A DNA stretch of 64,000 nucleotides from Pseudorhodobacter wandonensis (GTDB lineage: Bacteria > Pseudomonadota > Alphaproteobacteria > Rhodobacterales > Rhodobacteraceae). Below are positions 44,939 to 50,701 of this stretch, piece by piece. The position numbers were made by a program, and so were the translations under genes. Location of the stretch: assembly GCF_001202035.1 (NCBI RefSeq), contig NZ_LGHT01000025.1:124001-188000 (forward strand), read 5' to 3'. Positions within the stretch are counted from its first letter, which is position 1, and every line of letters begins with the position of its first letter. The notes below the pieces were generated by a model. That model saw nothing but the letters and a program-made list of their open reading frames with translations. It made no database searches and was not told the origin of the DNA.

Positions 44939-45391
44939 ATGAGTGACGCCGAAATGATGAAGCTCTATTCAGGGCGGATACTGGCATTGGCCGCGGATAT
45001 TCCGCATTTGGGGCATCTGCCCGCGCCGCAAGCCACTGTGCGCAAACGCTCGCCGTTATGCGGGTCGGTGGTGACGGTGGATTTGGTGATGCAAGACGGT
45101 CGTGTCAGCGAATATGCCCAAGACGTTAAGGCCTGCGCATTGGGTCAGGCGGCGGCAGCGATTGTTGGGCGGGTAATTATGGGGGCATCGCTGGCAGACC
45201 TGCAAGCCGGGCGCGAAGGTTTGCGCGCGATGCTGGCGGGTGGGCCGGTGCCGCCTGCCCCGTTTGACGGGTTTGCTGTGCTCGAACCCGCACGCGATTT
45301 CCGCAACCGCCACGCCTCTATCTTGTTGGCGATTGAGGCCGCAACCGAAGCTGCTGAATCTGTAGAAAAAAGCCGCCACGCTACCCTTTAG
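44939..45391 (+). CDS. NifU/IscU-like iron-sulfur scaffold protein (third Cys lost)
   Basis: This 150-residue protein belongs to the IscU/NifU N-terminal scaffold family. Two of the three expected ligand Cys are seen: C41 in PLCGS and C66 in KACALGQA. The third, normally in a C-terminal RxxC segment, is replaced around residues 125-127 (RHAS). So either an alternative ligand is used or the protein has a different role, such as a carrier. The start has no other candidate and the frame is complete. It is divergent from hisI by 66 bases. A minus-strand terminator overlaps its 3' end. Confidence 0.85.
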   Translation: MSDAEMMKLYSGRILALAADIPHLGHLPAPQATVRKRSPLCGSVVTVDLVMQDGRVSEYAQDVKACALGQAAAAIVGRVIMGASLADLQAGREGLRAMLAGGPVPPAPFDGFAVLEPARDFRNRHASILLAIEAATEAAESVEKSRHATL

Positions 45392-45403
45392 GCAGGTGGC
45401 GGC
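45366..45403 (-). terminator. Terminator for the SOS-box small gene
   Basis: GCCGCCAC (45372-45379) and GTGGCGGC (45396-45403) form a perfect 8-bp stem. On the minus strand the hairpin is followed by TTTTTT (complement of 45366-45371). It overlaps the NifU-like 3' end and would end a transcript of about 270-290 bases from the small gene. Confidence 0.65.
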
Positions 45404-45420
45404 AAGTGTGCGTATCTGAA

Positions 45421-45480
45421 GGGCGCATTCGGGGTGGGACAACCCCGGCGGATCACCGCGTCGCAAAAATGCGTGCGCCC
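45421..45480 (-). other. Structured 3' untranslated segment downstream of the small gene
   Basis: GGGCGCA (45421-45427) pairs with TGCGCCC (45474-45480), enclosing two further hairpins, GGGGT/ACCCC (45431-45446) and CGG/CCG (45449-45458), a branched fold. It is 26 bases past the small gene stop and before the terminator. It might be an RNA stabilising element or a small RNA; no known family is recognised. Confidence 0.4.
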
Positions 45481-45506
45481 TCGGCAACAGATCGCGGGCA
45501 GTAGTC

Positions 45507-45629
45507 TCAGATAAAAGAGGGCAAAGAGAGCCCGATAACCAGCACGGCAAAAAGTGACAATACACCCAAAGTGTCTTCGATAAGGGTTGAAGAAGAGCGG
45601 GTAACGACGGCTTTCATTTCGGCAATCAT
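45507..45629 (-). CDS. Small membrane protein, 40 aa, preceded by two SOS boxes
   Basis: This gene is short but has a textbook AAGGAGG ribosome site seven bases before its ATG at 45629. The product begins MIAEMKAVVTRSSS, a basic and polar head, then TLIEDTLGV and a hydrophobic helix (LSLFAVLVIGLSL) ending PSFI, so it is probably a single-pass inner-membrane microprotein. Two alphaproteobacterial LexA-type boxes lie in the 90 bases upstream, and a hairpin terminator lies downstream. This points to a DNA-damage induced gene. Caulobacter SidA, a 29-residue SOS-induced membrane division inhibitor, is a conceptual parallel; similarity in sequence is not claimed. Note the SD and stop codon are clear. 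Confidence 0.75.
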   Translation of the reverse strand: MIAEMKAVVTRSSSTLIEDTLGVLSLFAVLVIGLSLPSFI

Positions 45630-45645
45630 GGGAACCTCCTTGCTT

Positions 45646-45660
45646 GTTCCTATATTGTTC
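45646..45660. promoter_or_regulatory. LexA-type SOS box 1
   Basis: GTTCCTATATTGTTC matches the alphaproteobacterial LexA site GTTC-N7-GTTC exactly. It lies 17 bases upstream of the small membrane-protein gene. It overlaps the inverted repeat ATATTGT/ACAATAT (45652-45669). Confidence 0.65.
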
Positions 45661-45683
45661 TCACAATATTAACGCCCTGTAAA

Positions 45684-45698
45684 GAACTTTATAGGAAC
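45684..45698. promoter_or_regulatory. LexA-type SOS box 2
   Basis: GAACTTTATAGGAAC is GAAC-N7-GAAC, which is GTTC-N7-GTTC on the minus strand, the same consensus. It is 55 bases upstream of the small gene. A further GAAC at 45705-45708 is spaced by six rather than seven bases. Confidence 0.65.
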
Positions 45699-45716
45699 AT
45701 ACGTGAACAAAAAGTG

Positions 45717-49951
<4,235 letters not shown>

Positions 49952-49987
49952 TTAGGGGTAGGTTAACGCCACGTCCAGATGCCAGGG

Positions 49988-50701
49988 CTATGCCCCGATG
50001 GCAATGCGGTTTTCCCCTGCGCCCGTCGCGGGATCGCGAAGCACATATCCCCGGCCCCAGACCGTTTCGATGTAGTTCACACCGCCCGTAGCTTCGGCAA
50101 GTTTTTTCCGCAACTTACAGATGAAAACATCAATGATCTTCAGTTCAGGTTCGTCCATGCCACCATAAAGATGATTTAAGAACATTTCCTTGGTCAAAGT
50201 GGTGCCTTTGCGCAGGCTGAGCAATTCCAGCATCTGATATTCTTTGCCAGTCAGATGCACTGTCTTACCTTCGACATCGACAGTTTTGGCATCAAGGTTT
50301 ACACAAACATTGCCCGTCTTGATCATGGATTGCGAATGGCCTTTTGAGCGCCGTATAATTGCATGGATACGAGCGACCAGCTCTTCTCGATGAAATGGCT
50401 TGGTCATATAATCGTCAGCGCCGAAGCCAAAGCCTTTCAGCTTGCTTTCCGTATCATCCGCACCCGAGAGTATAAGGATTGGCGTATCAATCCGCGCCAA
50501 GCGCAGCTGACGCAGTACATCATGCCCACTCATATCCGGTAGGTTAATATCAAGCAGTATCAGATCATAATCGTACAACTTTGCAAGATCGACCCCTTCT
50601 TCCCCCAAGTCCGTACAAAATACGTTCAGGTTTGCATGCGTCAACATTAGCTCAATGCTGCGCGACGTCGTAGGGTCGTCTTCCACCAAAAGGATTCTCA
50701 T
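49988..50701 (-). CDS. ctrA: Cell cycle master regulator CtrA
   Basis: CtrA is an OmpR-type response regulator, essential in Caulobacter and used in Rhodobacterales for motility, gene transfer agents and related functions. The 237-residue protein has receiver acidic residues in LVEDDP and phosphoacceptor D51 (LLDINLP). A winged-helix output domain follows after about residue 125 ([35 protein letters not shown]). The phosphoacceptor position is the same as in the Caulobacter protein. It is downstream of sciP on the same strand with a 95-base gap that includes a possible CtrA site. Confidence 0.97.

Follow-up and report, generated by a model that had tools for sequence, protein, structure and literature searches.

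Immediately behind recG, on the minus strand of the 64-kb stretch of Pseudorhodobacter wandonensis DNA analysed here (the window), lies a 40-codon frame whose translation is MIAEMKAVVTRSSSTLIEDTLGVLSLFAVLVIGLSLPSFI. Upstream of it are two matches to GTTC-N7-GTTC, the LexA motif published for Caulobacter (PMC12700426), and a first-pass annotation read the frame as an SOS-regulated membrane microprotein gene. The locus raises the question of whether this frame is a gene, whether it belongs to the SOS response and what its peptide and its transcript might do.

Table 1. Features of the locus, in window coordinates.
Feature	Position	Strand	Detail
Microprotein gene (predicted; 40 aa, single-pass membrane)	45507..45629	-	Stop 45507-45509, ATG 45627-45629, AAGGAGG just 5'
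Structured 3'UTR RNA, stop codon to T-run	45366..45509	-	R1 52.9 bits, E 2e-14
Terminator hairpin and T-run, 3' end of the RNA	45366..45403	-	Folding; part of R1
LexA box 1, GTTCCTATAAAGTTC	45684..45698	-	Exact GTTC-N7-GTTC, directly upstream of the -35 element
LexA box 2, GTTCCTATATTGTTC	45646..45660	+	Exact GTTC-N7-GTTC facing box 1, covers the -10 element
Third GTTC half-site, 10 bp upstream of box 1	45705..45708	-	
Promoter-like TTTACA-18-AACAAT	45654..45683	-	9/12 matches; shuffles have a mean of 0.3 such sites
recG, conserved upstream neighbour	45717..47804	-	NCBIfam RecG equivalog

The frame and its AAGGAGG ribosome site, which ends 5 bases before the ATG, are present in the window as first annotated. 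Comparison of 21 pairs from seven genes of the same genus gave a mean pN of 0.157 and a mean pS of 0.595 (pN/pS 0.26), with pN lower than pS in all 21, indicating purifying selection on the frame within the genus. In the other two reading frames mean pN exceeded mean pS. The length of the microprotein is 38-42 aa in 85/85 genomes. A profile of 28 orthologues (A1) matched 218 of 248 Rhodobacteraceae genomes at E<=0.01 and, at E<=0.001, 139 of 149 genomes from a sample of the order, with all of these matches in the same family; a class sample of 289 genomes gave five matches, namely four family members and one fragment within a long frame. About nine of ten sampled genera retain the gene. A spurious frame is ruled out by pN/pS, the near-fixed length and the distribution among genomes.

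The position next to recG is also a property of the family rather than of this one genome, recG being found upstream on the same strand at 163 of 165 loci; the two without a recG match are L107 and L113. These loci comprise 85 distinct genomes and a second set of 80 genomes, the two sets partly overlapping (for example L141 and L015), and family identity was taken from the second set, which includes Ruegeria, Phaeobacter, Leisingera, Sulfitobacter and others. In the window, ctrA (NCBIfam CtrA equivalog), ligA, recG and then the microprotein gene occupy 45507-50701 of the minus strand, which brings cell-cycle control, repair and a putative SOS gene together in one cluster. On the other side, the locus adjoins a convergent NifU/SufU-like gene (44939-45391, plus strand), the matches for which lie below curated cut-offs. 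A mobile or phage origin of the microprotein gene was considered and rejected: one DNA query from L158 gave no match in a phage collection, one protein query gave none in a plasmid collection, and the position behind recG is fixed.

The single-pass hydrophobic peptide of the first-pass annotation is borne out by hydropathy and by structure prediction. A 17-residue hydropathy window exceeds 1.6 in 85/85 genomes, strong hydrophobicity extends from about residue 15 to the C-terminal end, and the N-terminus is neutral or positive in 76 of the 85 microproteins. The extent of the hydrophobic region and the charge of the N-terminus suggest an N-in, one-pass topology. An AlphaFold2 model shows helices at residues 2-11 and 13-39 with a mean pLDDT of 88.6, and the product is accordingly predicted to be a very small single-pass membrane protein, as is characteristic of the SidA type. 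The window peptide had no match in Pfam or NCBIfam; the 28 members of A1 had none in Pfam and two in PHROGs, both at chance level (E about 0.04). As it matches neither Pfam nor NCBIfam, the peptide is probably prone to being overlooked or annotated as hypothetical.

Exact GTTC-N7-GTTC occurs only twice in the window, where 1.8 sites would be expected by chance over both strands. Hence, although the two boxes are present and clustered as first annotated, their count is ordinary; it is their clustering, which had been called striking, and their position and conservation that are unusual. An exact forward box was found upstream of the gene at 91 of 91 loci, equivalent to 85 distinct genomes after dropping six repeats. 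These 91 loci were the best profile matches plus 40 chosen down the A1 list to about E 2e-11, weaker ones being reached only via the RNA model described below, and a chance match (L025) had been dropped before the count. In the second set, which is the best 80 of 154 and leans to roseobacters, an exact box was found in 79 of 80 genomes, the exception (L201) having a spacer of 6 instead of 7. The search for orthologues with conserved upstream boxes, proposed as a check by the first-pass annotation, therefore gave a clear positive answer, and this conservation rules out chance boxes despite the lack of a genome-wide excess reported below.

The arrangement of the sites is conserved as well as their presence. 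Box 1 starts 67 to 110 bases before the ATG in the 85 genomes, and an opposed second box with no more than one mismatch is present in 84 of them (7 exact, 77 with one mismatch), compared with 1/85 in equal stretches inside recG. In 81 genomes this opposed box stands at a single offset downstream of box 1, and GTTC is found at the offset of the third half-site in 72/85. The predicted sigma-70-like element TTTACA-18-AACAAT is located between and over the two facing boxes, and TTTAC is conserved in the consensus of the upstream regions.

Within the own genome, TGTTCN7GTTC occurs at 24 sites as against 29 for the reversed control. As there is no overall excess, single boxes mean little without conservation. 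Nine of the 24 sites are the two at the microprotein gene and those beside lexA, recA, uvrA, a uvrD/pcrA-like helicase gene, a photolyase-like gene, a PA0069 radical-SAM gene and an SRAP gene; the remaining 15 lie at no evident SOS gene. The uvrA and helicase frames are truncated where their loci end, and the photolyase-like gene scores under its cut-offs. The microprotein gene therefore shares two features of the alphaproteobacterial LexA regulon, a GTTC-N7-GTTC operator at a promoter-like element and the same operator pattern at lexA, recA and uvrA of the same genome. Since the same box is found at these and other repair genes, LexA control of the microprotein gene is well supported by the sequence data, and the SOS-regulated microprotein first proposed is upheld to that extent. 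Elsewhere in the own genome two similar small proteins are encoded beside an AT-rich TGTTCN7GTTC box, one of 97 aa (L030, G000:C5:13337-13352) and one of about 100 aa (L034, G000:C16:15609-15624). Each start adjoins its box, the L030 protein has no family match above cut-off, and both are possible further SOS genes.

Downstream of the stop codon the transcript would carry a folded RNA. A terminator hairpin followed by TTTTTT starts about 100 bases after the microprotein stop; its folded stem is bulged, and a simple terminator scan did not report a hairpin at 45403-45366. The first-pass annotation was thus correct that a terminator follows the frame, but not that it is a dedicated one: it belongs to the structured RNA, and the convergent NifU/SufU-like gene has its 3' end within the hairpin, which may thus act in both directions. 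The 3'UTR, taken to run from the stop codon to a T-run that an automatic rule located in 83 of 85 genomes, has a median length of 175 nt, and 75 of the 83 fall at 120-215 nt. Folding of 15 examples showed a shared architecture of a closing helix, hairpins with CUGUCC/CUGCCU loops and a strong terminator.

Support for the closing helix came from a test that uses no alignment. In the 72 of 85 UTRs with usable arms, the two arms from the same genome paired at -25.8 kcal/mol compared with -17.9 kcal/mol (sd 0.40) for permuted arms, and 0 of 10000 permutations were as good. In an alignment of 40 sequences (A4), 84.0% of cells were paired versus 76.6% after shuffling, 22 of 36 pairs had changed on both sides, and no measure was reached by any of 500 shuffles; the tested structure was partly derived from the A4 sequences themselves, which favours it in this test. 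Sliding the structure by 1-3 columns reduced pairing to 34-48%. Helix 3 of the counted structure paired poorly in A4 (40.2% of cells). The consensus of a more diverse alignment (A2) comprises the terminator only, and the remainder of the fold comes from the more uniform A4 together with the alignment-free test. The new finding here is a conserved, structured RNA in the 3'UTR that combines a closing helix showing covariation with repeated, exposed CUGYCY loops and a terminator.

A covariance model of this RNA (R1) recovered, at E<=0.01, 70 of the 73 loci that had not been used to train it, where the 73 exclude L070 and L071, include some close kin of training rows and were all chosen for the peptide. 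There was no R1 match at L008, L102 and L107. L008 keeps both gene and box intact, and offers a natural strain for separating the functions of peptide and RNA tail. Within the window R1 gave one significant match (45366-45509), a second at E 0.93 being chance, and in the whole own genome one match at E<=0.1. The window copy reached no Rfam gathering score; the match to isrK scored 19.3 bits against a cut-off of 50.

We also searched with R1 in 24 genomes in which the match to the peptide profile was absent or weak. Sixteen gave a match at E<=0.1 and eight gave none. Five of the 16 were strong (E 3e-7 or better) and were confirmed as the locus; eleven were weak, and the two of these that were inspected (L221 and L222) were not the locus. 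Consequently 19 of the 24 genomes with an absent or weak peptide match had no strong R1 match either. The five confirmed copies (L215, L217, L218, L219 and L220) encode highly diverged, predicted membrane peptides of 37-42 aa behind recG, with D-x-x-G in four and E-x-x-G in L219, and with a hydrophobic C-terminal half in all five. All five have one or more exact boxes, in one orientation or the other, L215 having the opposed box only. The locus resembles that of DinR in that LexA boxes precede an mRNA whose 3'UTR forms a conserved RNA with an intrinsic terminator.

The loops themselves carry a repeated sequence. Over the 83 UTRs, CTG[CT]C[CT] occurs 3.11 times per UTR versus 0.46 in dinucleotide shuffles, its reverse complement occurs 0.02 times per UTR, and 0.715 of its bases are unpaired versus 0.39 elsewhere. 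A partner in cis was not evident in the same UTRs: co-evolved pairing with the ribosome site was no better than in permuted combinations (-26.23 for own versus -26.45 for permuted, 7378 of 10000 as good), and for the coding part 9236 of 10000 permutations were as good.

As a candidate partner in trans, ftsZ, the target of Klebsiella DinR, was chosen beforehand, and RGRCAG, the complement of the loop motif, was fixed before the ftsZ start regions of 30 genomes (L223-L252) were seen. A ACAGGCGGACAG-like stretch is conserved just before ftsZ in most of the 30 genomes, and CAGGC is found within -30 to -1 in 29 of them. RGRCAG is present between -60 and +30 in 27/30 and between -30 and -1 in 23/30 (19/26 outside the own genus), the background for the latter interval being 25/357 and 24/345 gene starts in two genomes. 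GGACAG is present at 18 of 30 ftsZ starts, although ribosome sites in general are not enriched in this word (0.97-fold, rank 2152 of 3675). Among 98 orthologue pairs it was kept in both genomes at ftsZ only; RGRCAG was kept in three, with 1.7 expected. Each genome contains 0 to 3 exact copies of CAGGCGGACAG-ATG. An apparent excess of GGGACAGG before ATG was set aside, since most of it follows from the frequency of ATG, which is 3.3 times that of the control GTA.

Energy-based measures were less distinctive. By single-loop duplex energy ftsZ ranked 178 of 357 and 130 of 345, which is not outstanding. Own RNA-ftsZ pairs weakly beat permuted pairs in longest run (524 of 10000 permutations were as good, and 294 once the own genus was left out), and for duplex energy 1268 of 10000 permutations were as good, both comparisons including the effect of relatedness. 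In the own genome GGACAG is missing at ftsZ, and the RNA likewise lacks CTGTCC. Pairing of the 3'UTR RNA with the ftsZ ribosome site is, from these comparisons, a lead with mixed evidence, and we regard action of the RNA in trans as possible but somewhat doubtful.

Collectively, the reading that we favour as probable is of a family-wide Rhodobacteraceae SOS gene with a LexA-operated transcript, whose peptide is most likely a SidA-like checkpoint. We are confident that LexA, the peptide and the RNA form one regulated unit. The operators, promoter geometry, coding selection, membrane helix and RNA fold are each supported at the sequence level. In the proposed model, LexA dimers on the two facing GTTC-N7-GTTC operators, with the third half-site, would cover the promoter between recG and the peptide gene, and RecA-driven LexA cleavage would release a single transcript of about 280-300 nt. 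Translation of the 5' part would yield a peptide in which a polar helix at the N-terminus is followed by a single membrane helix (core D-x-x-G) at the C-terminus, and the 3' part would form the conserved folded RNA with exposed CUGYCY loops and terminator. The most likely action of the peptide would be to delay septation during DNA repair in the manner of Caulobacter SidA, and the folded tail may either stabilise the message or be set free as an sRNA during that response. We argue for control of division by the peptide from the analogy with SidA and from the neighbours ctrA, ligA and recG, and give it slightly less than an even chance.

Several other explanations of the locus were weighed against this reading. 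The GTTC repeats could be bound by a regulator other than LexA, as three half-sites spaced 10 and 11 bp together with an opposed site form something more elaborate than a single SOS box, and a single box is the rule in Caulobacter, at about 97% of SOS promoters (PMC12700426); given the same GTTC-N7-GTTC at lexA, recA, uvrA and other repair genes of the own genome, we consider this very improbable. A small hydrophobic peptide encoded behind LexA boxes on a structured mRNA would also fit an SOS-induced membrane toxin that lowers membrane potential and promotes dormancy, with the mRNA structure restraining translation until processing. TisB and DinQ of E. coli are LexA-controlled small membrane peptides of this sort, and are toxins with antisense RNAs. 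To our knowledge neither is a fixed neighbour of a repair gene, and near-universal fixed presence of the kind seen here behind recG is, as far as we know, unlike most type I toxins. As co-evolved pairing of the UTR was seen neither with the ribosome site nor with the coding part, we do not favour a cis-folded toxin mRNA and regard a toxin as unlikely.

Doubt of another kind concerns what the RNA contributes to the favoured SOS unit. Long stems and a strong terminator are common at mRNA 3' ends, and the tail might merely stabilise the mRNA and end transcription, its C-rich loops having no partner. The ftsZ tests, which proved no target, agree with this, but the loop sequence itself is repeated, and on a single strand only, so that such a purely structural role appears rather unlikely to us. 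At the other extreme, the RNA could be the main product, a LexA-controlled 3'UTR sRNA like Klebsiella DinR from the dinI mRNA, with the peptide secondary. DinR represses ftsZ via its ribosome site (PMC10907235), the CUGYCY loops are enriched and unpaired, and R1 found five copies in which the profile had missed the peptide or seen it weakly. Against this, the peptide is under purifying selection and is present in 5/5 copies found through the RNA (the 73-locus set, chosen for the peptide, is uninformative here), the RNA-model match is absent at three of the 73 loci, and ftsZ, the trans target tried, gave mixed evidence. A main role for the RNA is in our view not likely, and we place it on a level with the toxin.

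The closest known counterpart of the favoured reading is SidA of Caulobacter, a 29-aa SOS inner-membrane protein that inhibits division and binds FtsW (PMC4211646). It is likewise a tiny inner-membrane protein, as predicted here, under LexA in an alphaproteobacterium; the present microprotein, likened to it by analogy, differs in having 40 aa, a fixed place behind recG, two facing operators and a conserved structured 3'UTR. A second Caulobacter SOS paper (PMC13384398) has a bearing on SidA only. DidA of Caulobacter (71 aa, acting on FtsN) is also a DNA-damage-induced membrane division inhibitor, but is SOS-independent and driven by DriD (PMC4211646). For the RNA, the nearest likeness is DinR/dinI of Klebsiella, in which a 157-nt RNA from the 3' end of a LexA-controlled small-protein mRNA covers the ftsZ ribosome site (PMC10907235). 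In DinR, the stretch that pairs with ftsZ is part of a region specific to Klebsiella, and the RNA is excised within the coding region (PMC10907235), whereas the RNA described here begins at the stop codon and is conserved across the family, with ftsZ pairing as a candidate. Within Rhodobacteraceae, UdsC of Rhodobacter sphaeroides is a 3'UTR-derived sRNA behind the hypothetical-protein gene RSP_7527, matured with RNase E, but it has 67 nt and an RpoHII-dependent promoter (PMC8625941, PMC9779115).

Among the titles and abstract openings of the open-access literature matches listed, none described the microprotein locus, and the matches listed included no SOS division inhibitor of Rhodobacteraceae. 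The main texts on UTR-derived sRNAs (PMC8625941) and on UdsC (PMC9779115) contain no mention of recG, LexA or SOS, and 'recG' is absent from the main text on D. shibae LexA sites (PMC6473078) and from those on Ruegeria sRNAs (PMC4809877) and Paracoccus sRNAs (PMC5107571).

Both the marine roseobacters and Rhodobacter belong to the Rhodobacteraceae. Action in trans, if real, would place the RNA among very few sRNAs directly under LexA, the lack of others having been remarked on in the DinR paper (PMC10907235). It is conceivable, though in our judgement decidedly unlikely, that the locus forms a two-armed checkpoint in which the microprotein blocks the divisome and the CUGYCY loops of a freed 3'UTR sRNA cover the ftsZ ribosome site, which is ACAGGCGGACAG-like in most genera sampled; if true, a single RNA would unite counterparts of SulA and DinR across the family. 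Present in about nine of ten genera, and combining an elaborate SOS promoter with a conserved RNA tail, the microprotein gene is a strong candidate for an SOS division checkpoint of the family.
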